Source: a virus. Taken from it: a stretch of DNA of 64,000 nucleotides. The first letter of the stretch is position 1, and every line of letters starts with the position of its first letter. A program made the translations under genes and the position numbers. A model generated the notes under the pieces. It was given only the letters and a program-made list of their open reading frames with translations. It was not told the origin of the DNA and searched no databases. Shown here piece after piece: positions 3,608 through 26,911 of this stretch. The stretch covers positions 1 to 64,000 of the IMG/VR virus record IMGVR_UViG_3300027976_000028, one strand, 5' to 3'.

Positions 3608-4309
3608 ATGCGCTTACGAGAATTTATACAACCATTAGAAGAACTTGCAACTGTAACTCACCGTAATGAGATGGACCGTCTCTTCAAACAAAACGGTTAC
3701 AAAAAGATTGGTTCCGGTGCAGATGCAATGGTTTATAAGAAAGATAGCAGCCATGTTATCAAAATCTTATTCCCAGAAGATTATTCACCAGCAGCAAAGG
3801 CAATTAGATCATTCACAACGTTTTATGAATTTGTTAAGGCTAATCCAACATCACCGTTCCTACCCAAAATTTCTGAAGTAAACGAAATTGAAGTAATGGG
3901 TGAGGTTTTCACGCAGATCGCAATGGAAAAGCTAATGCCCTTAAAATCTGGATCTTTCCTTTTAGTCATTGTTTATCAAATAATCAGTGATATCGAAGAA
4001 GGTGGCGCGCCGGGGCCTAAAGGGGAAGGATTTAAGAACTTGCTATTATATCTTCAGAAACATCCAGCGAATTGGGATAACGACATCCCGTTCGACGATA
4101 GACATTATAACATGTCGCCGATTGCACAATCAATTCTAGCCAATCCCGCTAAACTGAAATTCTACAGTGATTTTTATGATATTGCAGAAAAATTACACGC
4201 CACAGGTTTAGCACATCCCGATGGTCCTTTAGGATGGGATTTACACACCGAAAATGTAATGCTTCGTGGTCAAACACCCGTAATCATTGACCCTTGGTTT
4301 ATGAGTTAA
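3608..4309 (+). CDS. Kinase-fold protein, putative capsid-targeted
   Basis: 233 aa from the ATG at 3608. The start MRLREFIQPLEE resembles the capsid-targeting leaders of the neighbours. The rest has kinase-fold signs: a glycine loop (IGSGADAMVY, residues 34-43), a Lys in VIKILF (about 52), a catalytic-loop-like DLHTEN (211-216) and a metal-site Asp in IIDPWF (228). The family resembles small-molecule or antibiotic kinases more than Ser/Thr kinases. Late promoter directly upstream. Likely packaged and injected (inference). Confidence 0.6.
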   Translation: MRLREFIQPLEELATVTHRNEMDRLFKQNGYKKIGSGADAMVYKKDSSHVIKILFPEDYSPAAKAIRSFTTFYEFVKANPTSPFLPKISEVNEIEVMGEVFTQIAMEKLMPLKSGSFLLVIVYQIISDIEEGGAPGPKGEGFKNLLLYLQKHPANWDNDIPFDDRHYNMSPIAQSILANPAKLKFYSDFYDIAEKLHATGLAHPDGPLGWDLHTENVMLRGQTPVIIDPWFMS

Positions 4310-4336
4310 TCACGCAGTAGGCAGCCTGCCCTTTTG

Positions 4337-4343
4337 CTAAATA
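4337..4343 (+). promoter_or_regulatory. Late promoter motif CTAAATA
   Basis: CTAAATA ending four bases before the ATG of the 1577-residue gene. Same spacing as the motif at 3596. Confidence 0.6.
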
Positions 4344-4347
4344 TCGT

Positions 4348-7300
4348 ATGAAATCCCTGAACGAGTATTTAAACGAAGTTATTGCCCAACAAGAGTATGT
4401 ATATCATGTGTCACATCTACCTAATCTTAAACTTGGGTTACGCAGTATAATTAAAAGTGGGTTACAGCCCTCTAAAGTTGGATATTCTGGACCCGGCGTT
4501 TATTTTGCATACAAGCCAGACGGCGGCTTCTACCATGTAGATGCAAGCGAAGCAACTATGTTTCGTGCTAAATGGAAAAATCTTGTTGCACATTATGGTG
4601 TATACCCGCAAGCCCCGAATGGCATACAACGCGACGACGATGAAATCATTGTACCAACGAGTGTACCCGTAGAAATGTTAGAAGTAGAATATAATCCCGG
4701 CGAATGGTGGGATGTAAAAAGTGCATTAGCAGCAGAAAATGGCCCAATGAACGAGGTTACCATTGACAACAAAGATGGTGCAGGCGCAGTCCCATACAAT
4801 GCTGATATAGACTACTTTGGACTTCGCGTACAGATGAAGCCAAGTACATTCCTACGCTTGGCCGAACCACTTGGCAAGCCACACGACCCGGAATTAGAAA
4901 AATATATGGCAGCGGGCGGTGCAACAGGCTCCCCATTTTTAGAAATAGCAATTCCTGAAGAATGGGATGTTGGCAATTTTAGTAAAGTTGCGCAGGTTAA
5001 ACGTCACGAAGGTCGTAATCGTGCCACAATAACACAAAAGTTAGAAGGTGACAGTCCAATAGAAGTTCACCTTATACCACTTGGAGGATATCGTAATCGA
5101 GATTTAACTCCAGAGTTTATTAAAGCGTTAAGCGATGGTTTATTCGCAGAGAGGACTACTCGTGTTGTAAATGGCCCATTGTTTACTGCAATGGTCGTAA
5201 CTGAAGATGATGAAACTCTGCCTATGGCCGATAATCCAGAACATGTCCGCATGGCTGAGTTAAAGAGACTTATGGGTGCGTTTCCAAACTCAGCAGACTA
5301 CATGTATAGTATCCCGGCGTATAAGCGGGCTCGCCTGCTATTCAACAAGGGCTTACTCAAAGCGTCAAGACCTGAAATTGAGTTACTCCTCAAATTAACA
5401 ACGTCGACTGGTGATCTTAAACCACTTAGTGAAGAAGAGGAATTAACTGAATTATTTGAACCAAGCAATAAAGAATGGAAGTGGAAGCATCACTATAACA
5501 CATCTGCTATAGCGTTATTTAAAATAGGCAAAATCCCATATATGTTTATGGCCGAAACATATACGCACCCCGATAGTCCAGAATCTGCGGGCATGTGGGA
5601 TGTTGTTTTCAAAATCGACAAGCACTATAGCGGCTATACTGATCTCGAGGCCACTTCATACGGAATCACTGGCTCTGGCAACTCTGCAGAAGTAATGGGA
5701 ACGGTAGTAAACATCCTAAAGGATTTTATCAGCATATACAAAGAAACACTTCGCGGTATTACATTCGTTGCCAACGAAGATTCACGACAATCCCTATATG
5801 CTAAAATGGCACATAGATTATTACCAAATTGGGAATTCTATAAAGATGGCAAGGAATTCATATTATCAAAGCCAGAGGATAATGTAAATGAATCAGTGGT
5901 TAATGAAAGCCTAAGCCGCATTGCCTATCACTATACAAGTTTATCTAGTGCATTAAATATATTGACTACTGGGCAGTTTCAGCTTGCATCAACACTTGGT
6001 AGTGTTGAGGAGAAATATGCGCCTCAAGGGCATCATTACTTCATGAGCACTACACGCTCTAGCAGAGGCGGCTATCACGACAGCAATGTAACAAAAAACT
6101 CGACAAGTGGTATATTATTTGCATTGGACGGCAACTGGTTTAATCAACACTACAAAGCAGGACCCATAGATTATTGGCAAAATCGTAATCAAAATCAAAG
6201 ATTTAACGTCACGCACCACGAATCCGAAGACCGTATATTTTCGCGGACACCTACTATTCCAATTGGCGGGATTACAGCGGTTCACGTATTCATGAAGGTA
6301 ATGGATAATAAAGAACGGGACAATTACGGTGCAATGGCACCAGCTAATGCGCGTCAACTATTATTACGAGCAAAGACACTTGGCATTAAGGCATACCTAT
6401 ATGAAGATGTTACTGCATGGCACAATTTAGATATTAGAAAAACTGTACCTATTACAAATAGAGAAACACTTCGCGGTCCCGATCTTAAGAAAGAACGTAC
6501 ATCATCAAAGCCCCGTGGATATTTAATGCCATGGATGGAATTGTTGCAAGCAAAAGAAGTGTCACAATTGTCTAAGGCTGCAGATCGCATTCGTTATAGT
6601 CTACAATATACATATGATGCTCAGAGTGCTATAGAGGGTTTAGCAAATAATTTAAGCAATGCCCGCAAGCCCGATTCAGGGGGCGATCGCGAAAATGCTG
6701 CGAAGCTAATAAGATTTATGCAACAGAATAAGTTGAACACTATTTCTGAACTTGTTAAGGCAATTGGGGACAAGTGGAAAGCTATTGCTGCCAAGAAACC
6801 CGCTAACGAAGTAATAGAATCAGATACCCCAATTAAACTTACAAGCAATGCAAAAGCTAAAGGTTGGATTGATAAAGTATACGCAAGGTATCCGCAGATG
6901 TTCCAACGCAATCATGTCATGCCTCTTGGCGGTGCGGGCAATGATCAACAGTTTGCTATGTTTGAACTAACACCAAGCTTCGCAAAACGTGATGCAGTGG
7001 AGGTAACATGGATACAAGCTTATCCAATGGGGCAAGGCGTAGGTGCAAGAGCAATGAAAGAACTGCAAGCACTTGCAACTGCAGATGGCATTAGTTTAAC
7101 ATTATTCCCTTGGGACAAAGGACAAGTATCGCAGGCTAAATTGACAAAGTTCTACAAAGGGCAAGGATTCAAGCCTACTGCCAAGGGTTCAAGGACCATG
7201 GCATGGAGTCCGATTACGGAATTGTTTGAACCGAGCACTAAAGACTGGAAATGGGAATTCCGTGGCAAATACACCGCCTCGGCGGTGTTTACTGTAGAAG

Positions 7301-9081
7301 GTATCCCGTATAAGTTTCATGCATCTACAGAGCCAGACCCAGATATTTACGGAATATGGGATATTGAATTTACAATAGAAACTCCAAGACCGCCCGGTCG
7401 TTCAGTTAGATACAATCTATCGGGTACAGGTAACTCGGCTGCTGTAATGGGAACCATAGTCGACATAATGAGGGCATTCCTAATTAAGTACAAGGATAAC
7501 ATCGGCGCATTGCAATTCTCTGCCGATGAAGTATCAAGGAAATCATTATATAAGCGAATGATTCAACGGTTATTGCCAAATTGGAAACTAAAGAGCTATC
7601 CTGGCGATATGTTCTCTATTACGCCGCCTGCGCTCCGCAAAAAAGTAATTAAGCCAACAGTTGAAACTGCAAGGAAAACTCTCAACGACTATCTTAACAT
7701 TGTTATCGAAGACTTCAATTCAAATCCATACAGCAAAACTACACTACCGCTGGGTCCATATCGCGGACTAAGTAATCCACTGGACAATGATCATTCAGAA
7801 TCATACGAAGCCTCGGAGTTATGGGATATAGTCGAAGATCAAATTGAAAAAGGTATTAAACCAACCGTAATCGATTTTCCTATAAATCAACTTGAAGCTA
7901 CACAGGATTGGTTAAGTAGTGAAGCAGGCGACGAAGCACTATTTGACGAATATACAGATCATCCGGTTGTATTAGCATACGCAGCCGACAATTATATACT
8001 TGATGGGCATAATCGTATTGCCGCTGCAATTAAAAATAAACAAGTTAAAATACCAGTGTTTTTGTTTGATGCTGATGTGAAAGTAACAGAAGGTGAATCT
8101 AATATGAAAATTAGAGAATTGCTAATGAACGGAGGCTGGGCAAGTGACTTAACTTTTTCCACAGTCATCACACCAGCAGTAGTGCAAGAAATGGTAAAAC
8201 ATCTTGCGGAGTTTGAACAGAAATTCAATGAATGGGAAAAGCAGGGTAATATGGGATTAGAGATTAACATTGGCAAACCAGTGGGCTCGGGTACATATTA
8301 TGAACGAGATCTTATACAAGATCCAACACGAGAATATGGCGATGTTGATGTTATGTGCTATATTACAAGTCTCCCAGATGAAAGTGCTGCCCAACGCATC
8401 GCTGTTTATCGCACTGCTATTCAATCTTTCTGCCAACTCAATGCAAAATACAAAACAGATAATGGCACTAATGTTATATTTGATTCAGCGGCAGGCCCCG
8501 TACAAGTTGATTTAGTTTACACCTTCCACGAACACGCAAATTGGGGACGAGCATTAGCACCAGAATATAGGGTTAAAGGGGCTATTAATACAAGTTTAAC
8601 AAGCGCAATGGCCGACGCCCTGAATCTTAGTTTTAGCTCTCAAGGTGTACAGGCAAAATTACGCAATGGACAGCCAGTAAGCTTCCGCCAAAGTAAAGAT
8701 ACGATACTACATATGGTATCAATTGATCCCGAGAACTGGGCAAAGGACATATATAGTTTCTATTATGAATTGGCAAAAGGTGAAAAGCCAACATCGTTTC
8801 CCGGGGGACTTGAACAGCATAGCGGGATTAAAGACGAGCAACGGTTAAGTGACATTGTATATGCTATCAAGAGTCTTGTAGCGGCCTTTGAGCAATCAAT
8901 GATATTACCTCCAGATTTAATGAATAAGATTGCCGATATATTTGTGAGCAAAATGGATGCACAAATTGGGTCGTCAAAGTACTTAACAGCTCAAACACCT
9001 GAAGCCGTCGCTAAAGCTGATAAGACTAAGGCTATGTTTATGCGCTACAAAGAAGAGATACCAAAGTTGCTTCTGAGCTAA
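4348..9081 (+). CDS. Giant modular internal-virion polyprotein (ART, GNAT, ParB-like, NTase)
   Basis: 1577 aa. N-terminal capsid-targeting-like MKSLNEYLNE. Module 1 (about 16-130) resembles an ADP-ribosyltransferase (YHVSHL, then SGPGVYFAY). A repeated domain starts at about 369 and 959, each copy preceded by [LI]TELFEPS. A second ART-like module starts at about 525 (YHYTSL, FMSTTR). A GNAT-like domain is at about 840-955 (QGVGARAM). A ParB-like module is near 1125-1240 (DGHNRIAAA). A nucleotidyltransferase-like module follows 1253 (YGDVDV, QVDLVY). Internal leader copies KTLNDYLNIVIE (1110-1121) and MKIRELL (1253) and sites VNE/S, VIE/S and VTE/G mark the joints. Probably a fusion of several once-separate packaged proteins. 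Confidence 0.75.
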   Translation: MKSLNEYLNEVIAQQEYVYHVSHLPNLKLGLRSIIKSGLQPSKVGYSGPGVYFAYKPDGGFYHVDASEATMFRAKWKNLVAHYGVYPQAPNGIQRDDDEIIVPTSVPVEMLEVEYNPGEWWDVKSALAAENGPMNEVTIDNKDGAGAVPYNADIDYFGLRVQMKPSTFLRLAEPLGKPHDPELEKYMAAGGATGSPFLEIAIPEEWDVGNFSKVAQVKRHEGRNRATITQKLEGDSPIEVHLIPLGGYRNRDLTPEFIKALSDGLFAERTTRVVNGPLFTAMVVTEDDETLPMADNPEHVRMAELKRLMGAFPNSADYMYSIPAYKRARLLFNKGLLKASRPEIELLLKLTTSTGDLKPLSEEEELTELFEPSNKEWKWKHHYNTSAIALFKIGKIPYMFMAETYTHPDSPESAGMWDVVFKIDKHYSGYTDLEATSYGITGSGNSAEVMGTVVNILKDFISIYKETLRGITFVANEDSRQSLYAKMAHRLLPNWEFYKDGKEFILSKPEDNVNESVVNESLSRIAYHYTSLSSALNILTTGQFQLASTLGSVEEKYAPQGHHYFMSTTRSSRGGYHDSNVTKNSTSGILFALDGNWFNQHYKAGPIDYWQNRNQNQRFNVTHHESEDRIFSRTPTIPIGGITAVHVFMKVMDNKERDNYGAMAPANARQLLLRAKTLGIKAYLYEDVTAWHNLDIRKTVPITNRETLRGPDLKKERTSSKPRGYLMPWMELLQAKEVSQLSKAADRIRYSLQYTYDAQSAIEGLANNLSNARKPDSGGDRENAAKLIRFMQQNKLNTISELVKAIGDKWKAIAAKKPANEVIESDTPIKLTSNAKAKGWIDKVYARYPQMFQRNHVMPLGGAGNDQQFAMFELTPSFAKRDAVEVTWIQAYPMGQGVGARAMKELQALATADGISLTLFPWDKGQVSQAKLTKFYKGQGFKPTAKGSRTMAWSPITELFEPSTKDWKWEFRGKYTASAVFTVEGIPYKFHASTEPDPDIYGIWDIEFTIETPRPPGRSVRYNLSGTGNSAAVMGTIVDIMRAFLIKYKDNIGALQFSADEVSRKSLYKRMIQRLLPNWKLKSYPGDMFSITPPALRKKVIKPTVETARKTLNDYLNIVIEDFNSNPYSKTTLPLGPYRGLSNPLDNDHSESYEASELWDIVEDQIEKGIKPTVIDFPINQLEATQDWLSSEAGDEALFDEYTDHPVVLAYAADNYILDGHNRIAAAIKNKQVKIPVFLFDADVKVTEGESNMKIRELLMNGGWASDLTFSTVITPAVVQEMVKHLAEFEQKFNEWEKQGNMGLEINIGKPVGSGTYYERDLIQDPTREYGDVDVMCYITSLPDESAAQRIAVYRTAIQSFCQLNAKYKTDNGTNVIFDSAAGPVQVDLVYTFHEHANWGRALAPEYRVKGAINTSLTSAMADALNLSFSSQGVQAKLRNGQPVSFRQSKDTILHMVSIDPENWAKDIYSFYYELAKGEKPTSFPGGLEQHSGIKDEQRLSDIVYAIKSLVAAFEQSMILPPDLMNKIADIFVSKMDAQIGSSKYLTAQTPEAVAKADKTKAMFMRYKEEIPKLLLS

Positions 9082-9110
9082 TGAGCTAAATAGAGTACAA
9101 TGATTTCATC

Positions 9111-9118
9111 ATTAAATA
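9111..9118 (+). promoter_or_regulatory. Late promoter-like ATTAAATA
   Basis: One base from TATAAATA, 15 bases before the ATG at 9134, with a ribosome binding site (AAAGGA) between. A CTAAATA also lies at 9086-9092. Confidence 0.45.
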
Positions 9119-9133
9119 TAAAGGAAAATTAAA

Positions 9134-9412
9134 ATGGATCTATTTCTCATAATCATCTTCATCGTAGTAGTGCTTGCGGTAGTCGTCTTTTACTTGCGTG
9201 AAGGAAAAGACGTACAAAACGAAGTCTCCAATATACCACCTAAATTTGACGATGCACCGTACAAAGTCGACCCGCCAGTTGTAGTTGAACCACCTGCTGT
9301 TACAGTGCCAGTAGTTGCCGCAGCTCTTGCAAACGATGTCACTAAATCAGCACCTAAGGTTACTGCAAAGCCAAAAGCTAAAGCTAAGAAGCCACGTAAA
9401 CCAAAAGCCTAA
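9134..9412 (+). CDS. Small membrane-anchored protein with Pro/Lys tail
   Basis: 92 aa. Residues 3-22 form one transmembrane helix; the remainder is Pro/Val-rich and ends in a Lys-Pro-Ala repeat (KPKAKAKKPRKPKA). The tail could bind DNA or the cell wall (TonB-like linker appearance). Lies between packaged-protein genes, two bases before the next ATG. Function unknown. Confidence 0.65.
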   Translation: MDLFLIIIFIVVVLAVVVFYLREGKDVQNEVSNIPPKFDDAPYKVDPPVVVEPPAVTVPVVAAALANDVTKSAPKVTAKPKAKAKKPRKPKA

Positions 9413-9414
9413 GT

Positions 9415-10131
9415 ATGTTGTTACGAGAAGTCATTGCGGTTCGCAAAGTTATCAATGAAGGTGGAAATGTCTTTAAGGACAAGGATGGCACACCGCTGAC
9501 TGATCGTATTCAACGTGCAGATGTAGAGCCTACAGTAAGATGGTTAGAGAGTATCACGGGATACAACTTGTTTTCTCACTTGCTTGGTACAACGGGCAAG
9601 AAAGAGAGTTCCGGCGACATTGATATTGGAATGGAAGAGGTTGCAACAAAAGAAGACTTAGTAAATAAACTAACAGTTTGGTGCTCTCAAAATGACGTAG
9701 AGGCAGCAACATACATTAAAAAGTCCGGCATTAACGTACATTTTAGAACGCCAATTGGCGGATCATCAGATCGTGGGTTTGTACAAACCGACTTCATGTT
9801 TGTTCCTAATTTAGATTTTGCCAAGTTTGCAATGGCAGCGGATCCGCATAGTAAGTATAGAGATATGTACAAGCATATCACGATGAGTTCTCTTGCAAAG
9901 CCGTTGAATATGTTATGGAACCCAACGACAGGTTTGTCTGATCGTACTACTAAGAAAGTAATATCTACAGACCCAGACAAAATTGCACAAACGCTATTAG
10001 GACCAAACGTTGATCGCACTGCGATTACAAGCGTAGAATCTATATTAAGAGCTCTTGAAAATGATCCTCAGAAGGACGAAAAATTAGCAGATGCAAGAGC
10101 AACTCTTGCAAAAACTGGGATAACAATTTAA
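9415..10131 (+). CDS. Nucleotidyltransferase-fold protein, putative capsid-targeted
   Basis: 238 aa. N-terminus MLLREVIAVRKVINEGG contains a predicted prohead-protease site INE/G at 14-16. The body has the nucleotidyltransferase signature ESSGDIDIGM (about 63-72) and a third acidic strand VQTDFMF, as in the C-terminal module of the giant upstream protein. Members of this fold transfer NMP groups to proteins or RNA. It follows the previous gene by two bases and abuts the next. Confidence 0.6.
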   Translation: MLLREVIAVRKVINEGGNVFKDKDGTPLTDRIQRADVEPTVRWLESITGYNLFSHLLGTTGKKESSGDIDIGMEEVATKEDLVNKLTVWCSQNDVEAATYIKKSGINVHFRTPIGGSSDRGFVQTDFMFVPNLDFAKFAMAADPHSKYRDMYKHITMSSLAKPLNMLWNPTTGLSDRTTKKVISTDPDKIAQTLLGPNVDRTAITSVESILRALENDPQKDEKLADARATLAKTGITI

Positions 10132-11592
10132 ATGCTATTACGACAAATTATACTTGAGAAAGAAGGATTCGATGCAAACGAGCTATTAGCATTTAAAGAT
10201 GTCATTGCGTCGAAGATTAAGCAATTGCCGCAAGATGATGCCACTGCTAAAACTCTTAAAGAAATTGAGGAATTATTGACGCACGTTAATGCAGGCGGAC
10301 GAATGGGTATGATAAATGGAGCATTGCACTCAATAAATGATCCAGCTGTATTATCTTCACAAAAACGGTTATCACAGTACCTTGCAAGTATGGAAGTAAG
10401 TCCTGACGAACGCAAGGAGTTATTTCACCTATGGAAAACAGATAAGATTCTTAACATTGATGTATTGTTGTCTAAAAAGAATGTTACCTTCTCGGAACTA
10501 TTCAACGGTTACGATACTAACAAAGCTATTAAAGAGTTAGTAGATGACGTAATGGAAGTTGCTGATTTGGGGCAAGGCAAGGGCGAGTTTGGTCTTAATG
10601 TATTATCAAAGAGTGTTAGTAAACCAGGGTCGCATACAAACTTAGATCAAGATGGAGATGACAAAGCTAAGGGTGACTTAATTATTAAATACAACGGAAA
10701 ATGGCGTAAGATTGAAGTTAAAACAACACAGGGCGGTGGCGCACGATTTGCCGACCAAGAAGTGCGTCCAGCCGAAGGATATGAAGCTGCATCATCTGAA
10801 TTAAATGCATCAGTAGAGAAGTTAAAGAGTTCATTGGTGTACAAAGAAGTATTCCCCAATGGAATGGCCAAGGGTTACGGTATGAACCTTGGGCAGGCTA
10901 TTAATTGGTATCGCCATACTCAATTGCCAAAAGTAAAAGCAGATTTCCTTAATAAGGTTGATAACGTAGTAACATTGATTTTTGGCGGTAAGAAAGCTGA
11001 TCATGCTAAAGTATCGGCTATTATAAAAGCCATTAAATCAGGTGATGATAATACTGCGAAGCAACAATGGGCACAGGCGTGTTTTAATTACTACATTGGA
11101 CAAAAGGATGACGAAGGTGTCCTGGCTATTAACTTGAATAGTAAGAGCATTATGTTCTATAGTACATCAGATGACCTTACTAAACAAGGTTTACGTTTCT
11201 CTGCTGATACAATTTACCTAACTGCTAAAGATGCACAGCGCGGAGCATATCCACAAATTAGTGTTATCCCAACCACCTTTGGTGCTAATGCCAAAGCAGC
11301 AGGAGAAAAGAAAGCTGCCGACGCCGAGAAGAGTAGACTACGTGGATTAACACGGGCAGCGACTGCAAATCCAGTTGATGCACCAGCGCGCCACCCAACA
11401 GTAACTCGTGCCCAATTTAACAAAGACATGCTAGCATTCGCTACTAACTTTGCACACCGTAAGAAGATATATGATCCGGGTCGTATTAAAGAACTTAGTG
11501 TATTTGCAGCTGATTTAATTGCCAGTGGCGCATCAATGACGAGCATTAGGAAGCAATTAAGCGGCCATGCTGCCGAGATGTTACCATCATAA
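10132..11592 (+). CDS. PD-(D/E)XK nuclease-like protein, putative capsid-targeted
   Basis: 486 aa, N-terminus MLLRQIILEKEG, similar to the preceding gene. Around residues 180-200, GDLIIKYNGKWRKIEVKT fits the PD-(D/E)XK core (Asp, then E-x-K), which suggests a packaged nuclease. The C-terminal third is helical and basic. A bidirectional terminator follows. Nuclease activity is an inference from one motif. Confidence 0.5.
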   Translation: MLLRQIILEKEGFDANELLAFKDVIASKIKQLPQDDATAKTLKEIEELLTHVNAGGRMGMINGALHSINDPAVLSSQKRLSQYLASMEVSPDERKELFHLWKTDKILNIDVLLSKKNVTFSELFNGYDTNKAIKELVDDVMEVADLGQGKGEFGLNVLSKSVSKPGSHTNLDQDGDDKAKGDLIIKYNGKWRKIEVKTTQGGGARFADQEVRPAEGYEAASSELNASVEKLKSSLVYKEVFPNGMAKGYGMNLGQAINWYRHTQLPKVKADFLNKVDNVVTLIFGGKKADHAKVSAIIKAIKSGDDNTAKQQWAQACFNYYIGQKDDEGVLAINLNSKSIMFYSTSDDLTKQGLRFSADTIYLTAKDAQRGAYPQISVIPTTFGANAKAAGEKKAADAEKSRLRGLTRAATANPVDAPARHPTVTRAQFNKDMLAFATNFAHRKKIYDPGRIKELSVFAADLIASGASMTSIRKQLSGHAAEMLPS

Positions 11593-11607
11593 TTTAACGT
11601 CAATAAC

Positions 11608-11635
11608 AAAAAAGGACCATTATGGTCCTTTTTTT
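11608..11635. terminator. Bidirectional rho-independent terminator
   Basis: A6, then the hairpin GGACCAT/ATGGTCC (11614-11628), then T7. It separates the converging genes ending at 11592 (+) and 11653 (-) and should work on both strands. Confidence 0.9.
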
Positions 11636-11652
11636 ATGAAGTATATCAATAA

Positions 11653-12003
11653 TTACGTTCCAAGTGTAACCGAATAATCTTCTACAGCAGCAGCAAACGT
11701 CCACAATACCAACGTGCCATCTGCAAATTGATGAGTGCCACCGCCGGTCTGATGAACTCGTAACTTCCTATCATGTACACGAGTTACATTGTATGTATTG
11801 CCATCACTGTCGAGTGCTTCAATAGTCATTAAATTATCGGATCCGCCAACCGCTGCAAGTCGAAACGGGGCTCTGCCCTCTCCAACTAAGTTGTACCGGT
11901 GAGTTCCTGTTTGTTTATTAATATCGGCAGTTGCTGGTGCTTCTTCAAATGTGAAGTTTGCAGTAATATTTAATAATGTTGATTGTTTAAGTGGTCGTCC
12001 CAT
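11653..12003 (-). CDS. Small beta-rich protein, likely virion
   Basis: 116 aa, predicted almost all beta strand (Thr/Val/Asn-rich), like phage decoration or fibre-tip domains. Ribosome binding site CAAGGAG upstream and a CTAAATA motif about 80 bases further up. Not recognised by family. Confidence 0.55.
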   Translation of the reverse strand: MGRPLKQSTLLNITANFTFEEAPATADINKQTGTHRYNLVGEGRAPFRLAAVGGSDNLMTIEALDSDGNTYNVTRVHDRKLRVHQTGGGTHQFADGTLVLWTFAAAVEDYSVTLGT

Positions 12004-12079
12004 TTGTTTCTCCTTGACGTTCTAGGTCTACGCTGTTGGTACAGCATAAGTCTTGCTAATGCAAGCTCTACTAGACAAG

Positions 12080-12154
12080 CTATTTAGTAATAGGTGGGTG
12101 TTTGCCGCCACATTTCGGGCATTCTTCTGATTCGATCATTAAGTTTAAGTACAT
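12080..12154 (-). CDS. 24-residue zinc-ribbon-like miniprotein
   Basis: An ATG behind a strong AAAGGAGATTAT site opens a 24-codon frame containing CPKCGGKH, a CxxC knuckle that could bind zinc with the His. Its TAG stop lies in a CTAAATA late motif. Very short, but the ribosome binding site and motif support it. Confidence 0.45.
   Translation of the reverse strand: MYLNLMIESEECPKCGGKHPPITK
12081..12087 (-). promoter_or_regulatory. Late promoter motif CTAAATA
   Basis: CTAAATA on the minus strand at the end of the miniprotein gene, a candidate late promoter for the gene starting at 12003. Confidence 0.4.
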
Positions 12155-12209
12155 ATAATCTCCTTTATGTAACCCATACTTAGCAGATCAACAAGTAGAT
12201 CATCATTTG

Positions 12210-12217
12210 TATAAATA
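12210..12217 (+). promoter_or_regulatory. T4-type late promoter, exact TATAAATA
   Basis: Exact TATAAATA ending four bases before the ATG at 12222. Confidence 0.7.
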
Positions 12218-12221
12218 ACAT

Positions 12222-13274
12222 ATGAAACTTTCTGAACTCCATACCATTATAGAAGATGAGGGCGGTGGTGCGTCTGCTGGTGCTACATCAAGTGGGGATA
12301 TTGCCACTGTATCATTCCCGTTAATGACAAGGGGTAAGAACAAAAAAGCAAGATTTGCAGCCGGTCGTAAAGCAGTTGGACTAAGTGGAAGTGTTACAAG
12401 TTACATTGGCAAGGGCGTGTATGAAGGTAGTGGCGCAGGGATAGGAAAGAAGCATATTAGCCCAAGTGGAGTTAAAACTAACATGCCACCATCAGACGAG
12501 GATTATGAGATCAACTACGGTAAGAAAGGGGTTGCTGCGAAAGGCATCGGAGAAGCCCACACACTTGACAACAACAGTGTTATCTACAAATTGGATCCAA
12601 CTGATCCAATGAACAAAACAGAGGTTATGGTGTTAGGCGGTGCAGGTCGTTATACATTGTCCTCTCTGCGTAATAAAGCACGAAAAGAAGCGCAAGCATT
12701 AACAACCGATTTACAAGCTGAACATGGTGGTTCATTCCGCAGTGCAGCATATAATATTAAACAATTAACAAATACACTGAATACCATCGTTGCTGCTTAT
12801 AATGAATTAAAAAGAATTAGGCAGAAAGGCGGTCGAGGCTCCCGTGGCATTACAGACGAGGATGCAAATTTCGTCCGCGAACACCTTGAGACACTTGAAC
12901 AATATGTTATTATTGTATCAGAAGCAAGGGGACTTACTGCTAATTTCAAAACAGCATTGAAAGAAGGCAAGTTAAACAAGATGCATACAGATGCAATATC
13001 GGGCATGTACCACCTTGGCATAGATCCGGGTTATGAGATGTACAGATGGTCAATTCACACCGCTGGAAACAAAGGAGGACCAGACGCTGGACTTGGTCCA
13101 AAAGCAGGACCATTCGCCTTCGCATACACCGACGAAGAGGATGTTATGATCCGCAATGCAGTGAAAGCAATGGGTGGCAAAATTAAAACATTGTCCGCAC
13201 GCGGTAGTATCGAGTCTGACGATGTCAATAAAGTCAGTGCAATTCCGGTGTTGAATTGGAAGAAGATTCATTAA
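12222..13274 (+). CDS. Putative capsid-targeted internal protein
   Basis: 350 aa. Leader MKLSELHTIIEDEGGG matches the shared N-terminal pattern. A Gly/Ser-rich linker follows (GSGAGIGKKH), then a long helical region (about 140-260) and an alpha/beta C-terminus. No enzymatic motif recognised. Exact late promoter with four-base spacing. The 3' end overlaps a homing-endonuclease remnant on the other strand. Confidence 0.6.
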   Translation: MKLSELHTIIEDEGGGASAGATSSGDIATVSFPLMTRGKNKKARFAAGRKAVGLSGSVTSYIGKGVYEGSGAGIGKKHISPSGVKTNMPPSDEDYEINYGKKGVAAKGIGEAHTLDNNSVIYKLDPTDPMNKTEVMVLGGAGRYTLSSLRNKARKEAQALTTDLQAEHGGSFRSAAYNIKQLTNTLNTIVAAYNELKRIRQKGGRGSRGITDEDANFVREHLETLEQYVIIVSEARGLTANFKTALKEGKLNKMHTDAISGMYHLGIDPGYEMYRWSIHTAGNKGGPDAGLGPKAGPFAFAYTDEEDVMIRNAVKAMGGKIKTLSARGSIESDDVNKVSAIPVLNWKKIH

Positions 13275-13560
13275 CAAGTAGTTGAGTTAAACGGACATTA
13301 TTTCTTTTCGTACGAGTTGCAGCTTTTTCTTCAGAAGACCTACTTGTCTGAGCAATGCTCATATTATGACGAATTATTGCCTTTTCTTCGGGCGATTTAT
13401 TTTTCTTAGTTTCACTTATTTTTTGCCGGGTTGCTGCTGTTCGAGGAATACCAATATCTAATTTGGGTTCAATTTTTGAGCTGTGTTTTCCGTAGTAATG
13501 TCGCTTTTCTACGATGTTTGTGATGCGATATACGCAATGATAAATAGGTTCGTTGGTCAT
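13234..13560 (-). pseudogene. Deleted GIY-YIG/NUMOD3 homing endonuclease (copy C)
   Basis: 108 codons, open. The start MTNEPIYHCVYRITN and HYYGKHSS look like a GIY-YIG domain, but the catalytic middle is missing and the frame jumps to NUMOD3-like repeats (RTAATRQKISETKK, SPEEKAIIRHNMS). The last 41 bases run into the oppositely directed gene. It shares its leader and first codons with copies at 38747 and 46159. Most likely a decayed mobile gene. Confidence 0.65.
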
Positions 13561-13630
13561 ATAATCCTTAATGGGGGTTGACTAATGACAGCGGTATTAC
13601 AAGTACGCGGCTGTCACCTATTCTATTTAG
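13561..13630 (-). repeat. Homing-endonuclease leader, copy C
   Basis: CTAAATA (13630-13624), then TGACAGC (13616-13610) pairing with GCTGTCA (13592-13586), then a conserved AAGGATTAT ribosome binding site before ATGACCAAC. The same order occurs at 38675 and 46089. Confidence 0.8.
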
Positions 13631-13638
13631 TCTAAATC

Positions 13639-13646
13639 GATAAATA
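13639..13646 (+). promoter_or_regulatory. Late promoter-like GATAAATA
   Basis: Ends five bases before the ATG of a seven-codon leader ORF at 13652. Confidence 0.5.
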
Positions 13647-13651
13647 TAACT

Positions 13652-13675
13652 ATGAAAATGAAGGCCATAAAATGA
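13652..13675 (+). CDS. Seven-residue leader peptide
   Basis: Reads MKMKAIK then TGA; the stop overlaps the ATG of the next gene (AAATGA). It imitates the start of the capsid-targeted proteins and could couple translation to the 1014-residue gene. Too short to prove by sequence alone. Confidence 0.35.
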   Translation: MKMKAIK

Positions 13676-16600
13676 TCACACTTAAAATTCTGCATGAAGG
13701 CAAATTTCAGAAACAAATCTCCAGCCGCGTGCATGAAGGAATTGTCATTGAGCAACTAACAAGGTATAAAGGACTTGTTGACGAGATTCAATATTCCGGA
13801 GAGTTAACTGAAGGTGCAAGAGAAGTAATGCAGCGAGTTGCCAAAAAAGTAGTACCAGCAGCTCTCGCAGCAGGAATGGCGATGGGCACACACGGAGCAA
13901 TGGCGCAAAATAATCCGCATTACCCCGGCCTAAACAAAAGCATTGGCCAGCATGTATCTGATATCTTTAGCCCCAACTACAATGAAATACAACGGCAACG
14001 CCAGTATGAAAGGCAAACACAGCAACGCGAATGGGATGCTAAACAGAATGAAATTCGCCAAGCCCGCGTGCGTGATGCAAGAAATTCTGGTCGTGATGCC
14101 ACTGGACAGCCGCGTGGCAATGTAAAAGTATATGACCAAGCACGCCGTTCAGCTGACGGCAAGTACTTTCTGTTGTATGACATGGATGATCGCATCACAC
14201 GGATTCCCGTCAACGGTACGGAGTATATGGAGGCTGATTCTCAACGCCTCCCTCACTATATTGCACCAAACGGCTCGGTATATTATGTACGGAGTCCAGC
14301 AGCAAATGCGCAACCAACAGAGCAAATGGTAGCAGATGGACTTGGGGCAACACCAATGATACCAGCAAGTGGTACTGGTGCAGAAAAGCGAGCAGGCGGA
14401 GCAGCAGTGGCCGGAGTAGGTAGTACAGGTAGTGTTGGTGTTGCTCCTAAAACAACACCTGCGGCCGCTATTGCCGCGGCCGGTATAAATCCACTTGATG
14501 CCGATGACGAAGTTATTTCAAATCCAGATGGCACAACAAATTTAAGTATTAAGAACGGCGAACTTGTCATTGATAAGCCCGGTGTTAACGAAGCAAAGGG
14601 GTTAGCCAAGAAAGTTAAAGTTGTTAAAGGCGAACACGCTAGTAAGACAGGCTATATTCGCCAAATTAAACATGGTGCATTTAAAGGTGCTCCGAAAACA
14701 TACTATATAGATCTTGAGGATGGCACGCAAGCAAATAACATACCCGCTTCGTCATTACGTTTAGTCAAAGATGCGCCAGTAACCGAAGGCGGCACATCAA
14801 ATGATCTACAAGCAATATTAGATCAATACTCTGAGTCGTATGCAGACTTTAAAGAAGGTGGTGACTTAACGGATAATGACGCATTCTTCCAGGCACTATT
14901 TGATTATTTTAGCAACTCTGGCGATATGCCTTATGGTGTTGCCAAAGCACGCGATGGAGATCCTGTCCAATGGATCACAGATAGATTAGATGATTTATCG
15001 GGTATGGGCGATAAAGTAGCAGAAAGCGACCCAAGTGGACTTATGCACGCCGCAAAAACAATGAATAACGAATGGCGCATTACAGCAATGATGGATGATG
15101 GCAAGGTAAAGAAATTCCGAGTTAGAACACAGAGTGCAAGAACAGCACAGGAGAAATTTAAGAAAATCCATGCCACCGCACAAATTCAAAATGTTGAACG
15201 CATCGCCGAATCACAAATTGAAGGGACGGCACCAGTCAACGAGTTTTACGATTCAAGTATTGATAGAAATGATGATAGCTATGGTCCCGATGATTTGCAT
15301 CTTTATATCAATGTCGCTAAAAAACTTGATATGAAGAAATACAAAACAGAAACTGCACATACTCTAATTTCCAAAAAAATGGCAGGATTAGTTGCGACAG
15401 TTGATGATGACAAGGTTACCTACGCTTATCAAACTGCACAAAAAGAGCAAGGGTTGCCTCATCTATTAGGCGAAGCCGATTTAGCATTTGATGCTGACGA
15501 TACACTGTATACACTCACTGATACCTATCGCGATATCATGTCATCTGATGCGTACGATACTGACAACAAGCAACAAATTGGATTGTTGTATGATATGTTA
15601 AGGGATCCATTAATGGCAGGGGATGAAGATGAATATTATAAAGTTCACGCTTACTTACACGCAAAGTACCCAGACGCAATGGACGAACTATTAAGAGCAG
15701 CAGACCACCTAGCTCAAGGACCGCTATCAGAAAACCCACTATCACCAACCACTAGATTCCGTAGTATTCATGGCAATTACTGCGGTACCGGTAATCGTGG
15801 TGGTATGCCAACTGACAAGTTAGACCGTGCATGTTTCCATCACGACGTAGGTTACAAAAAATCAAGAGAGTTGCCAGATAAAGACGCGGCGCTTGCTGCA
15901 AGAGTTATCGCAGATACTCGTTTCATGGATAGGGTGAATAAGATTCAGCATGATAAAAGCTACTCGGCTTCAGTTAGATTTAAAGCCAGGATATTTGGCA
16001 ACTATTTTAAGATAAAGAACAGAAATGCAGTTCCAGTAGGTGTTATTGAAGGCACACATGATTACGCTAAACAGTTCACGAGTATGATGGACAAAATCAA
16101 ATCAAAGAAAATGGTCACTGACCGTAGCACCGGCGTTGAGTATGATCCCGAAGAGGAATTTCTCAAGCTGTTACAGCAACATAAAGCACAATTTCAAGGA
16201 ATGGCTGCAATTGAAAAAGCACAGAAGAGAGGTGTAGCAGAATCATTAAATAAAGATAGATACGACCAAGAGCCCATTGATCAACTTGACGATCAAATAA
16301 GTGACATTCTGCTTCGTGCTTATGAGAAACACGATAATCGAGATGATGTCATTGCAGCAGCATGGCCGGCTGCAAAGCAAGCAGCACAAGAGTTGAGTAT
16401 TGATCCGACGGGCAAAAGCTTTCATACCGTTTGGAAATTGGCAATTGGTAGCGATGCTGAGTACGCAGATGAAAATCCAGCAATGGCAGACACTACAAAG
16501 CGGCTACAAGATCCAAATGATGGTAAAACTGCCAAACTAAGAGCAAGCGGCGATAAGAAACGCGACGGTCACCAATCTCAATCATATGGATATGTCCAAG

Positions 16601-16716
16601 ACATTCCAGATATTGATGCAGATGATGTCTTGGCGATAAGTAGTGCTATGAAACCCGTATTCGAGGCGCAGACGCGTGTTGGTAAAATCATCAAATCAGT
16701 TTTTGGAACAAAATAA
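13672..16716 (+). CDS. Internal-virion polyprotein with phospholipase A2-like module
   Basis: 1014 aa. Predicted protease sites: LHE/G (9), VHE/G (22), LTE/G (47), VNE/A (307), VTE/G (372), VAE/S (451), IAE/S (513), LGE/A (601), VIE/G (793) and VAE/S (857). Segment 48-78 looks like a signal peptide (basic start, Ala-rich core, AMA before Q79). Segment 308-372 is KOW-like. Around 701-728 a phospholipase A2 signature appears: YCGTGN calcium-loop-like, then D-x2-C-x2-HD-x2-Y with the catalytic His724-Asp725 pair, close to parvovirus VP1 and secreted PLA2. Predicted to be packaged, cut and injected, the PLA2 perhaps helping membrane passage (inference). Confidence 0.7.
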   Translation: MITLKILHEGKFQKQISSRVHEGIVIEQLTRYKGLVDEIQYSGELTEGAREVMQRVAKKVVPAALAAGMAMGTHGAMAQNNPHYPGLNKSIGQHVSDIFSPNYNEIQRQRQYERQTQQREWDAKQNEIRQARVRDARNSGRDATGQPRGNVKVYDQARRSADGKYFLLYDMDDRITRIPVNGTEYMEADSQRLPHYIAPNGSVYYVRSPAANAQPTEQMVADGLGATPMIPASGTGAEKRAGGAAVAGVGSTGSVGVAPKTTPAAAIAAAGINPLDADDEVISNPDGTTNLSIKNGELVIDKPGVNEAKGLAKKVKVVKGEHASKTGYIRQIKHGAFKGAPKTYYIDLEDGTQANNIPASSLRLVKDAPVTEGGTSNDLQAILDQYSESYADFKEGGDLTDNDAFFQALFDYFSNSGDMPYGVAKARDGDPVQWITDRLDDLSGMGDKVAESDPSGLMHAAKTMNNEWRITAMMDDGKVKKFRVRTQSARTAQEKFKKIHATAQIQNVERIAESQIEGTAPVNEFYDSSIDRNDDSYGPDDLHLYINVAKKLDMKKYKTETAHTLISKKMAGLVATVDDDKVTYAYQTAQKEQGLPHLLGEADLAFDADDTLYTLTDTYRDIMSSDAYDTDNKQQIGLLYDMLRDPLMAGDEDEYYKVHAYLHAKYPDAMDELLRAADHLAQGPLSENPLSPTTRFRSIHGNYCGTGNRGGMPTDKLDRACFHHDVGYKKSRELPDKDAALAARVIADTRFMDRVNKIQHDKSYSASVRFKARIFGNYFKIKNRNAVPVGVIEGTHDYAKQFTSMMDKIKSKKMVTDRSTGVEYDPEEEFLKLLQQHKAQFQGMAAIEKAQKRGVAESLNKDRYDQEPIDQLDDQISDILLRAYEKHDNRDDVIAAAWPAAKQAAQELSIDPTGKSFHTVWKLAIGSDAEYADENPAMADTTKRLQDPNDGKTAKLRASGDKKRDGHQSQSYGYVQDIPDIDADDVLAISSAMKPVFEAQTRVGKIIKSVFGTK

Positions 16717-16717
16717 A

Positions 16718-18862
16718 ATGAAATTCTTTACAGAAATTAAAACAGTTAGTGAAGCATCGGTTGCTGCAGGCCCACGCACCAACGTTGAAGAAATGTTCAA
16801 CCAGGACACATATGCTGGTAATCCTGGTGAGTTTGATAAAAGTGACCCACATGCCAAGCCCAAATTGGCACCAAAGAAGAAAAATCCCAACGATGGCAAA
16901 TTTGTTCAACATGGCGCAAAAGTTCCCCGTGGATATACAATGACTGCTCATGGGCGGGTTGTTAAAGAAGTGGCCAAAGACGGCCAGGTTGATGAAGGCG
17001 GACAATTCAGTTACGGTGCAAAGGACCCAAAGAAGGGCAGCCAAAGAGAATTAAGCGCAAAGGCAAACAAAGATGCCAAGAGTAAGTCAACACCAATCGA
17101 GCCCAAGGATCAAATGGTTGGCATCGCCAAGGTTACGAAAGTTAAAGAAGGACTCGCTGATGATTTCATGGCATCTATTGACAAGAAGAAATTCCCCCAG
17201 GCACGCATAGTTGGTAATGTTGATGCACAGAAAAAAGAGCGTGACGAGATGATTGCAAAACGCACCGCTGATAATGCAAACAAACCAACACCCGTTAAAG
17301 GTCCCGGCGATTTAGCAGCTGGCTTTGGGCAGAATAAAGGCTACGGTCAGGGTCGGTACATGGGTGATTCTAAAATCAATGCTGCAAGTGCAGTTACCGA
17401 AGCAGGTGGCGAGAAGAACTATGGTGTTCGCTACAAAGTATTCGCGAGTAAAGAAGGTAGACTTACTACAAAAGAATATTGGACAACATCGTCTGAGAAA
17501 TTAGAAAGAGCTGCAACGAAGATTGAGGAATTGGGTAACTTCCACTCTATCGACGGGTATAGCTATCCTCCTGAACCACAGGGCATGGCAGAAGGTGATC
17601 AAAGCAAAAGTGCATCTGCCAGCCGTGCAAAAGAAGCACACGAGCAAAACCTTGATGCAGCACATAGGGAATTGATGCAGCGTGATGCAGATGGTGAGGA
17701 TATGAGTGGATATCATGTCAATCCCCGTACATACAAAATTCAGAAGCAGCTACCGGGCAAAAAGTGGACGCAAGAAGAACAGCGGGCGCATATGATTGAT
17801 AGAATGCGTAATGAAGGATTAGAGGAAGCCAGCGTCATGACATCGGGTCACAAAGGATATGACGCCATGCTATCAATTATGAAAGCAGCCGCCGCCGGTC
17901 GTGCAGCCACATTTACCATTGGCGAAGAAGAACTTACATTAGATTACAACGAAGCTACATTCTTAGCAGGAAAATACAAGGCATTCCTAAAAGCAGGTAG
18001 ACAAGAAGAGTTCCTGAAGTATATGGAAAGTCCACGGCTGTTTGATCGTTTAATGTCACAGTTGCGCACGATGATTGATAAGCAAAAGAACTTCAAAGGT
18101 TCTGTACAAGGCGATCGTCAAGTGCCCGGCGAGAAAAGCAGTCCTTTTGAAAGTGTTACCGAAGGGCATGTGGGTCCAACGCATAAAGATTGGGCATCTG
18201 CTGTTCAACGGGTTAAACAAAACAAGTTTAAAACAAGTGATCTTGTAAATTCGGTACAAAGTGTACCATATAAGCATCTTGCACAATTAGCACGAGATTC
18301 TGGACTCACCCCATCTGACGAGATGTTGAAACATGAGAACAAAAGTAAAGTAAAAAATGTCGCCGAAGGGCACTGTTCTCCTGGTGACAAAGTGAAGATT
18401 GATAATCCAAGTTCAATCCATCATGGAAAGACAGCCACCGTTGTTTCTCACAATAAAGAAACTGATAAGACCATTGTTAAGCACTCTGGCGGCAAAACAA
18501 TGAGTGTTGACCATATGTATCTTGAGAAAATTAAGGCCACTAAGAAGATCAATGAACTTAGCCCAAAGACACTTGGCTCGTATGCTAAGAAGGCATCAAG
18601 TTCAAGCGACGAAAGAAGCAATTCCAGCTTATCGTCACGCGCCGCCTACAAATTAGCAAACGATGAAAGAAATGATGACGGAGACGAAGACGATCATAAG
18701 TCATTCATGCGCTCAAAGGGAATTGCAAAAGCTGTTGATAGATTGACCAAGGAAAGTCCCTCATTGAAAGAAGGGCAATACTTCTGCCTAAGAGACAATG
18801 TTGCCAAGGTAATCCCAACCGGTTATAAGTTACTTGAGAGTGGCTTCATTGCAAGGAAATGA
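16718..18862 (+). CDS. Internal-virion polyprotein with ten protease-like sites
   Basis: 714 aa from the ATG two bases after the previous stop. Leader MKFFTEIKTVSE/A. Further hydrophobic-x-Glu sites after residues 93 (VDE/G), 144 (VKE/G), 228 (VTE/A), 292 (MAE/G), 370 (LEE/A), 482 (VTE/G), 550 (VAE/G), 613 (INE/L) and 685 (LKE/G) cut it into pieces of about 30-112 residues. Most pieces are Lys/Asp-rich and probably disordered or helical; 551-613 is a KOW-like beta module. No catalytic motif was seen, so a DNA-condensing or scaffold role is as likely as an effector role. Confidence 0.7.
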   Translation: MKFFTEIKTVSEASVAAGPRTNVEEMFNQDTYAGNPGEFDKSDPHAKPKLAPKKKNPNDGKFVQHGAKVPRGYTMTAHGRVVKEVAKDGQVDEGGQFSYGAKDPKKGSQRELSAKANKDAKSKSTPIEPKDQMVGIAKVTKVKEGLADDFMASIDKKKFPQARIVGNVDAQKKERDEMIAKRTADNANKPTPVKGPGDLAAGFGQNKGYGQGRYMGDSKINAASAVTEAGGEKNYGVRYKVFASKEGRLTTKEYWTTSSEKLERAATKIEELGNFHSIDGYSYPPEPQGMAEGDQSKSASASRAKEAHEQNLDAAHRELMQRDADGEDMSGYHVNPRTYKIQKQLPGKKWTQEEQRAHMIDRMRNEGLEEASVMTSGHKGYDAMLSIMKAAAAGRAATFTIGEEELTLDYNEATFLAGKYKAFLKAGRQEEFLKYMESPRLFDRLMSQLRTMIDKQKNFKGSVQGDRQVPGEKSSPFESVTEGHVGPTHKDWASAVQRVKQNKFKTSDLVNSVQSVPYKHLAQLARDSGLTPSDEMLKHENKSKVKNVAEGHCSPGDKVKIDNPSSIHHGKTATVVSHNKETDKTIVKHSGGKTMSVDHMYLEKIKATKKINELSPKTLGSYAKKASSSSDERSNSSLSSRAAYKLANDERNDDGDEDDHKSFMRSKGIAKAVDRLTKESPSLKEGQYFCLRDNVAKVIPTGYKLLESGFIARK

Positions 18863-25284: not shown

Positions 25285-25479
25285 TCAATAATTGCCCTTG
25301 ATGCTCAGCTGTAAATTCCGGGCTGCTCTAAATACATCTTCTACATCTGTAAACTCTGATGGATTTTCTTGCATTGCAATGGCCTCATCAGAGGACCGCG
25401 CCATGACTATCTTCGTTGCACCACCACTGCTCATAACGGTCCACCTAACCAATGGTGCCGGGCTTCTTGGTTGCGTCAC
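25285..25479 (-). CDS. Small hypothetical protein
   Basis: 64 aa if the ATG at 25479 is used, which overlaps the upstream gene by 35 bases; a later ATG (MSSGGATK) would remove most of the overlap. Contains a short alpha/beta segment with ARSSDEAIAMQENP. Not recognised. Confidence 0.45.
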   Translation of the reverse strand: MTQPRSPAPLVRWTVMSSGGATKIVMARSSDEAIAMQENPSEFTDVEDVFRAARNLQLSIKGNY

Positions 25480-26911
25480 GTTGCAATTTTACGTTCTTTA
25501 GCAGACTTTTTAGTCCATTAACGGAAAGCTCGCCAGCAGTAAATCGTGCAAAATATGCAATCGGATCATTGATATCTTTTGGTCCCAATAATTGATATAG
25601 CTTCTTTAGATATTCTTGACGATATTTTGTCGGATCAAGTGCTGCATCAAGTGCAACAACATACCTTAATAATGTAGGTTCAATTTTATCATAATATTTA
25701 TTTAACCAGTCTCCGCCTGGCGCACGAAATTCGATATATCCATCATGGGTATTAATTGTTGTATACTTTTGTGTATTGCCGCTATGGATAGCCTTTGTTG
25801 CAAATTCACTTAAATGCTCTTTCATCCGTCCTAATACTGCCGCTACATCTGCTGGACTATCGCGCATTTTTTGTTTAATTATCCCCATTGCTGATTTTGC
25901 ATATGTATTGCCCTCTCGTCCAAACGATGCGATTATGTGCTCGTTGCCCATTAGTAATGCCAGTTTAATGTAATCTAATTTTTGGATACTATACTCGGGC
26001 AGGCTAACATTTATGTGTAATCCAGTGCTAGCATTTGTATAACATTTCATACTGGAACTGGTTGCCCATGCTTTTATCTTAACTAAATCGAGTAATAGCT
26101 GCTTAAATGGCAATGGTGGGCTAACAAACTCTAATCCACTTTCATCGCGATTATCGGGTTGCAAGCTGCCGTCGGGCTCAATAATATAGGTATTAGCCTC
26201 GCGCTTTGCCCTATGTGCATCACCACCGTCATGATTAACTGGCCGCCCTATCATAGTGCTAAATTCGTCAGCAAGATACGCAATGTCTAAGTCGCCTTCA
26301 TCGTCACGAGTATGTTCGGTGTAGTAGGGCCACGACACACCGAAACTATTTTCAATGGGTCTCATTGAGTTGTAGTTATCGCGTATCCACTCTCTTTCGG
26401 TGGTATCGTTGTGATTGTCATCGTGCCACGTGTTATTCCAATCCTCATACGCACTGCGATAATGGCGATTTGAAACTCCGATTGCTGTATCTACGCTTGC
26501 TTGGATTTCATCGTCTGACGCTGCTGGATCAGCATCCCTGAAGTATGCCGTTACTACTTCTTCTTTTTCTAAAGCCCAGTCATCGTTTTGTTTATCACCG
26601 AGCCAATCTAAGTACTCATTTTCAAGTTTATCTTTAACATCACGCAATGCATTTCTACCACTCTGCCCACCTTCATCAAAGAATCTAATAACATCGTCTA
26701 TACTATTTGGTCTTTCGTCGTAACTATAATCAGGTTCACTATCATAATAATCGTCTAACCTGCCGTTAATGCTAATGCCCGGTACAATCATTTCAAATTC
26801 CATGCCAGCTGTGGCATTAATTTTGGAGGCTAACATACGCAAGCTACTTGGTGACATGTTAAATTCGTTAAGTTGGATTGCTGTAAACGGGTAAATATCT
26901 TTAATTCTCAT
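25445..26911 (-). CDS. Amidoligase-like protein, putative capsid-targeted
   Basis: 488 aa. Leader MRIKDIYPFTAIQLNE. GMEFEMIV (36-43) and, later, EPDGSLQPDNRDESGLEFVSPPL and TGLHINVSL match the glutamine-synthetase-like fold of putative amidoligases (COOH-NH2 ligases), which form peptide-type bonds. A charged insertion (about 70-220) separates the first strand from the rest. Late promoter four bases upstream. If packaged, it would modify peptides or wall material on entry (inference). Confidence 0.6.
   Translation of the reverse strand: MRIKDIYPFTAIQLNEFNMSPSSLRMLASKINATAGMEFEMIVPGISINGRLDDYYDSEPDYSYDERPNSIDDVIRFFDEGGQSGRNALRDVKDKLENEYLDWLGDKQNDDWALEKEEVVTAYFRDADPAASDDEIQASVDTAIGVSNRHYRSAYEDWNNTWHDDNHNDTTEREWIRDNYNSMRPIENSFGVSWPYYTEHTRDDEGDLDIAYLADEFSTMIGRPVNHDGGDAHRAKREANTYIIEPDGSLQPDNRDESGLEFVSPPLPFKQLLLDLVKIKAWATSSSMKCYTNASTGLHINVSLPEYSIQKLDYIKLALLMGNEHIIASFGREGNTYAKSAMGIIKQKMRDSPADVAAVLGRMKEHLSEFATKAIHSGNTQKYTTINTHDGYIEFRAPGGDWLNKYYDKIEPTLLRYVVALDAALDPTKYRQEYLKKLYQLLGPKDINDPIAYFARFTAGELSVNGLKSLLKNVKLQRDATKKPGTIG

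Follow-up and report, generated by a model that had tools for sequence, protein, structure and literature searches.

How does a large aquatic phage use a single chain of 1577 amino acids (aa) that joins many enzyme-like domains and carries inside it motifs resembling its own N-terminus? The question is raised by an open reading frame (ORF) at positions 4348-9081, on the plus strand like the genes, modules and sites of the window described below unless stated, of IMG/VR virus record IMGVR_UViG_3300027976_000028, whose positions 1 to 64,000 form the window of 64,000 nucleotides analysed here. The frame is intact over 1577 codons. It begins with MKSLNEYLNEVI at residue 1 and contains KTLNDYLNIVIE at residue 1110 and MKIRELL at residue 1253, while the two copies of a duplicated domain, 42% identical, begin with LTELFEPS (367) and ITELFEPS (957). 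The original prediction had placed all of these elements correctly and had read the protein as a successive fusion of packaged proteins, with the leaders kept as cleavage signals. We consider it probable that the protein is a capsid-packaged polyprotein that a prohead protease cuts into separate injected effectors; its packaging, cutting and injection are proposed by analogy with phage T4.

Profile searches of IMG/VR with segments of the protein yielded about 130 loci. Comparison with these at the sequence level shows the protein to be a fusion of no fewer than seven enzyme-like modules, most of which relatives possess as separate genes or in other combinations. The modules named here ART2, D2, GNAT, LTELF and NT occur as separate genes in relatives, each with its own leader. 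As independent modules, ART2 is present in more than 80 loci, NT in 41 and D2 in 11, and GNAT and LTELF likewise recur. On one 166-kb contig (L002), ART2, D2 and NT are separate genes of one cluster, 38-51% identical to the corresponding segments and lying amid further small genes. Other relatives carry two-module fusions (GNAT-ART2, ART2-LTELF, LTELF-ART2, D2-LTELF, GNAT-NT) or long ones (ART1-GNAT-NT of 1118 and 1293 aa, ART1-GNAT-LTELF-NT of 1906 aa). No NT or D2 module was found in cultured phages. The predicted fusion of packaged-type proteins is thus borne out by separate leader-bearing genes, and the objection that relatives might never encode the parts separately falls away. On contigs L102 (near 2803) and L103 (near 1703), a leader-bearing gene ends in a single stop codon and is followed in the same frame by the leaderless 1118- or 1293-aa polyprotein; readthrough or re-initiation could join the two.

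Stand-alone modules start directly behind a nine-residue leader of the form M[KR]xxEF[IL]xE, as in MRINEILTE/SLSRIAFHYT (ART2; the slash marks the cut), MRAREFILE/GGWAST (NT), MRAQEFVNE/VNIDN (D2), MRAAEFITE/EPIKL (GNAT) and MRAREFIIE/SFNQPY (LTELF). This leader is almost the same as the capsid-targeting sequence of T4. A census of 3,921 unique ORFs used the pattern M[KR]xx[ED][FILVY][LIVFM]x and scored the next residue, which was Glu in 175 of 221 ORFs, compared with 8% for the same pattern within ORFs. Isoleucine or leucine occupied P3 in 87%, and Ser, Ala or Gly occupied P1' in 46%; leader and cleavage site together recur over 72 protein families in these loci. In T4, the protease gp21 cleaves behind L/I-x-E, and the ten N-terminal residues of IPIII are enough to direct a protein to the head (PMC9026906). 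The N-terminal leader MKSLNEYLNE (residues 1-10; 4348-4377) is a predicted capsid-targeting sequence with a cut at LNE/V, comparable to the T4 ipIII start, MKTYQEFIAE/A, and has the form of a capsid-targeting propeptide, which is 10-19 residues long and ends in L/I-x-E. A longer leader, MKIDxLYESxLxE, opens eight consecutive genes of Alishewanella phage Slicko01 (354-6024), the last without the final Glu register; the run includes one ART-PolyVal gene and at least three ART2 paralogues.

A search of all ORFs for the mature N-termini of proteins with a leader located 118 internal module starts; [ILVMF]xE was exactly in cleavage register at 75 of them, compared with 0-15 at other offsets within 20 residues. 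After de-duplication (106 joints, 21 module families), P1 was Glu in 75% against a background of 6.5%, and P3 was hydrophobic in 72% against 24%. The other leader positions (Met at P9, Lys or Arg at P8, Phe, Ile, Leu, Val or Tyr at P4) were at background, with Glu or Asp at P5 slightly raised (27% vs 13%). N-termini of leaderless proteins, the negative control, gave 8 of 165 (5%). Since P3 and P1 are kept while the leader positions are at background, it is the cleavage site and not the leader that survives fusion in these sequences: the targeting leader is lost. The claim that leaders persist as cleavage signals therefore stands for the tripeptide and fails for whole leaders. A short basic module, NFADGKxPGRKG, which is possibly a DNA-binding tail, follows cleavage sites in many proteins (13 de-duplicated joints, e.g. 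on L055, L102 and L103).

The 1577-aa protein itself carries [LIVM]xE at five of its six homologue-defined joints: MNE/V at residue 136, LTE/L at 368, VNE/S at 520, VIE/S at 824 and ITE/L at 958 (binomial probability about 2e-8 for exact register, 6e-6 with one residue of slack). The last four are among the fragment starts that had been predicted, and modules found stand-alone elsewhere begin there. Behind the leader lies ART1 (residues 11-125; 4378-4722), an ADP-ribosyltransferase (ART)-like module with homologues on L102, L103 and L106. It has no Pfam match and is named by the motif YHVS...GVYFA only, as the model of residues 1-299 is unreliable over it (predicted local distance difference test, pLDDT, <50). 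The first junction site, MNE/VTIDN (residues 134-136; 4747-4755), corresponds to stand-alone MRAQEFVNE/VNIDN and MRANEFINE/INIDN in the register test. It precedes D2 (residues 137-283; 4756-5196), which is 51% identical to a separate gene on L002 and may weakly be assigned a ParB/sulfiredoxin-like fold, the best match of its model being the ParB-like PadC (probability 0.41), with sulfiredoxin also matched.

The next site, LTE/LFEPS (residues 366-368; 5443-5451; model pLDDT <50), is of the type processed in T4 Alt, LITE/LFDE. Copy 1 of the LTELF module (residues 369-508; 5452-5871) follows; it stands alone on L089 and L108 and is duplicated from 7222. A Pfam scan of the whole protein gave a single match, PF22028 (DUF6934, 5.7e-7), so that the LTELF modules are DUF6934-like. 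VNE/SLSR (residues 518-520; 5899-5907), with a second VNE/S just ahead of it at residues 513-515, corresponds to stand-alone starts such as MRINEILTE/SLSRIAFHYT and is placed in a flexible linker by the model. It opens ART2 (residues 521-815; 5908-6792), found in more than 80 relatives. Its model has pLDDT >85 over most of the core, and the fold search put DarT chains 7omw/7omx on top (probability 0.99, E 0.03), four DarT structures being among the first seven (probability 0.96-0.99, E 0.03-0.1, TM-score about 0.48). ART2, with conserved motifs STTR and ExEDR, has a DarT-like ART fold in the model and is a predicted ADP-ribosyltransferase; sequence searches for known families in PDB and Pfam gave nothing significant for it. 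An alignment combining several modules, intended for structure prediction, was discarded because it misaligned ART2 with GNAT. In the model, the sites at 368 and 520 are both located in linkers of low confidence, outside the folded ART2 core, and the concern that the motifs might be buried inside domains does not apply to them.

Downstream, VIE/SDTPIKL (residues 822-824; 6811-6819), one residue off register in the automatic test, corresponds to the stand-alone GNAT starts MRAAEFITE/EPIKL and MKASEFITE/DDVIKIKL. The GNAT acetyltransferase module behind it (residues 825-952; 6820-7203) has a profile match to AcrVA5 (PDB 6iuf, E 4.8e-6), and 10-11 of 12 members of its family match Pfam GNAT models. 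ITE/LFEPS (residues 956-958; 7213-7221), again resembling the T4 Alt mature start, precedes the duplicated LTELF domain, copy 2 (residues 959-1094; 7222-7629). VIE/DFNS (residues 1119-1121; 7702-7710), behind KTLNDYLNI, and VTE/GES (residues 1246-1248; 8083-8091) are candidate sites recognised from sequence only. Between them lies a ParB-like region (residues 1122-1245; 7711-8082) with the motif ILDGHNRIAAA, a ParBc_2 match below cut-off (E 0.014) and a weak match to a leader-bearing ParB-like gene on L002. The supposed leader copy at 1110, KTLNDYLN, is individually weak and was not upheld: no stand-alone homologue in register was found behind it or VIE/DFNS. MKIRELLMN (8104-8130), the other supposed copy, is likewise weak individually and has lost its cleavage Glu, but it sits where stand-alone NT genes have their leader (MKINEIILE/GGWAST, MRAREFILE/GGWAST) and is what is left of the start and leader of an NT gene that was formerly separate. 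Here the joint, the sixth of those defined by homologues, reads LMN/GGWAS, with Asn in place of Glu, whereas nearly all other members have xE/GGWAS. The NT module (residues 1262-1577; 8131-9078), 38% identical to a separate gene on L002, is a pol-beta-type nucleotidyltransferase by motif, GS...GDxD...D being invariant in 19 sequences; no Pfam or PDB sequence match was obtained for it.

Most large relatives encode a T4-type prohead protease of family S77 and the capsid protein gp23: in a first search of 18 contigs from relatives, each of the two was present on 14. Nine further, mostly short contigs gave no S77. The gp23 of the relatives' genomes carries LLAE/SSAGTTTAGN, likely the capsid cut. 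In 11 cultured phages carrying ART2 or LTELF, an [LI]xE site immediately ahead of the module tracks S77: it is present in seven S77-positive phages, several of them close relatives of one another (nt-1, ValKK3, D484, K566, Slicko01, SCTP-2 and Mel-JY01), and absent from four S77-negative ones (Dickeya JA13, Sen-NF, Lu11 and HRDY3). In the Vibrio phages nt-1 and ValKK3 the joint reads NLTE/AFDKP or NLTE/AFDRP and lies in a 306-aa protein (L177/L178, 2009-2929). In the Pseudomonas phages HRDY3 and Lu11, which lack S77, neighbouring genes share another leader (MKIQLAVA, MRIQLAVA, MEMxLALA), which may represent a second system for capsid targeting that relies on a different protease.

We therefore propose the following course of events. 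The MKSLNEYLNE leader, acting like the T4 capsid-targeting sequence, would carry the entire chain into the prohead; a T4-type prohead protease would then remove the leader and cut the joints, and the mature head would contain the separate enzymes, which would pass into the host along with the DNA. The enzymes released would include a DarT-like ADP-ribosyltransferase, an AcrVA5-like acetyltransferase, and ParB-like and nucleotidyltransferase-like proteins, among others. The NT module probably stays joined to its neighbour, is freed a few residues upstream at VTE/GES, or is translated separately from an internal start.

The alternative to be taken most seriously, although we judge it unlikely, is a conventional polyvalent protein that is packaged and injected as an intact multidomain chain, its internal [LIVM]xE being fossil leader ends of recent fusions. 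Such multidomain proteins are known and some are packaged unprocessed (PMC5512222), two neighbouring genes match PolyVal families weakly (Kinase-PolyVal and LPD24, both sub-threshold), and the NT joint has lost its Glu. Fossil decay, however, would erase all leader positions alike, whereas P3 and P1 alone are kept, across 21 module families, and the two sites for which the model has support are located in linkers predicted to be flexible. There is a slim chance that the protein, though expressed late, stays in the producing cell or serves the scaffold or head assembly, any cutting being head maturation and not effector delivery. The leader and the late-promoter motif described below do speak for head entry and timing and not for injection, yet the modules resemble enzymes modifying host targets (DarT-like, AcrVA5-like GNAT), and T4 Alt and the internal proteins (IPs), which bear the same signals, are injected (PMC9026906).

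That the tripeptide and the residues behind it act as structural N-caps for the modules and have nothing to do with proteolysis seems highly improbable: the ExL/ExS context is conserved inside each module family, but the same tripeptide stands ahead of unrelated folds, and ART2 homologues in the S77-less phages JA13, Sen-NF, Lu11 and HRDY3 start without it. An assembly or gene-calling artefact joining separate genes, which the separate genes of relatives might suggest, has a practically negligible probability given a single 1577-codon frame in two contigs and independent long fusions of 1118, 1293 and 1906 aa in others. The second contig, L001, also from IMG/VR, is nearly identical, with six mismatches over about 16.9 kb, and keeps the frame open; four of the six mismatches fall inside the ORF, none creating a stop.

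Several observations weigh against the packaged and cleaved polyprotein that we favour. Neither S77 nor gp23 is present in the 71-kb record, possibly a fragment, and the same is true of L002 (166 kb), the closest separate-gene relative; because S77 is absent from both, the protease for the protein is taken from relatives. A global enrichment of the tripeptide in the protein was considered and rejected, [LIVM]xE occurring 28 times against 23.7 expected, so that the claim rests on the position of the sites. Some [LI]xE lie inside folded modules, several joints have Val or Met at P3, where relatives' leaders have 87% Ile or Leu, and the NT joint is without Glu. No N-terminal leader is present on the polyproteins of L102 and L103, and the relatives' sequences are not independent, which means that the counts overstate the evidence.

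The surroundings of the gene have a similar character. A T4-type late-promoter-like motif, GCTAAATA (4336-4343), ends 4 nt before the ATG of the ORF; it occurs 10 times in the window against 3.8 expected, and CTAAATA has been reported as a putative late promoter of a T4-like phage (PMC1524935). Copies start at 4336, 9085, 24619, 26916 and elsewhere, some only a few bases ahead of a start codon, and in relatives' leader genes TAAATA starts 10-12 nt before the ATG in 27 cases; the late mRNAs of such genes may be nearly leaderless. A megablast search against known phages gave no match. The island at 3608-18862 holds further ORFs bearing leaders, including a kinase-like protein (3608-4309; leader MRLREFIQPLE; Kinase-PolyVal 2.4e-4, below cut-off; phrog_15752). 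A 1014-aa ORF with a phospholipase A2-like module (13672-16716; PF08398 above cut-off) has 12 [LIVM]xE[SAGN] against 2.8 expected, and a 714-aa ORF (16718-18862) has 10 against 2.6; from these motif counts, an enrichment that the 1577-aa ORF does not show, they are likely a second and a third polyprotein. Outside the island, an Amidoligase_2-like protein (25445-26911, minus strand; PF12224, E 6.4e-5) has the leader-like start MRIKDIYPFTAIQLNE.

In T4-related large phages generally, the prohead-protease site may serve as a modular joint by which effectors destined for injection are freely recombined into polyproteins that have a single capsid-targeting leader in common and are cut apart in the head, an extension to which we give slightly better than even chances. 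We found no description of prohead-protease sites between effector modules in open-licence papers; if the reading is true, delivery of phage effectors as a polyprotein payload is a strategy that has not been described before. It is difficult to detect packaged effectors whose action precedes all phage gene expression, and leader plus cleavage site would provide a sequence rule for predicting them, the leader census then listing the injected effectors of uncultured phages. The joints would explain how giant multi-enzyme chains are delivered as separate proteins, and the DarT-like, AcrVA5-like, ParB-like and nucleotidyltransferase-like modules suggest new host-takeover or anti-defence enzymes.

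Among known systems, T4 IPI, IPII, IPIII and Alt are alike in leader sequence and length, L/I-x-E motif, late-promoter-type motif and ADP-ribosyltransferase module. T4 Alt starts with MELITELFDEDT, and GenBank X15811 annotates its mature peptide from residue 7, MELITE/LFDE, the same processing site as LTE/LFEPS and ITE/LFEPS of the 1577-aa protein. The likeness to Alt that had been noted thus holds for the processing site, which alone is common to both; homology of LTELF to the Alt N-domain was rejected (hhalign probability 7.8%). T4 has one short protein per leader, whereas here one leader precedes several modules with sites between them. AcrVA5, a distant relative of the GNAT module by profile search, is by contrast a small stand-alone protein of a Moraxella prophage. 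The head ejection proteins of phiKZ and SPN3US (PMC5694885, PMC10052503) similarly comprise many internal proteins that are cut at a short x-x-E motif while the head matures, but there the cuts trim propeptides from single proteins, the motif is A/S-x-E and the protease is divergent. ART, ParB, kinase and GNAT domains have been described in polyvalent proteins, some of which, such as the N4 virion RNAP, are packaged unprocessed (PMC5512222). The 1577-aa protein shares with those described by Iyer et al. (2017, PMC5512222) many unrelated, shuffled enzyme-like domains per chain (ART, ParB-like, GNAT) and predicted injection, with disparate activities predicted in one chain (DarT-like ART, GNAT, ParB-like, nucleotidyltransferase-like); the ORF contains none of the curated polyvalent-associated Pfam domains, DUF6934 alone being matched, and no peptidase domain was found within the chain. 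Polyvalent proteins are proposed to be cut by their own metallopeptidase domain or to remain uncut (PMC5512222), whereas the joints here carry putative sites for a T4-type prohead protease.
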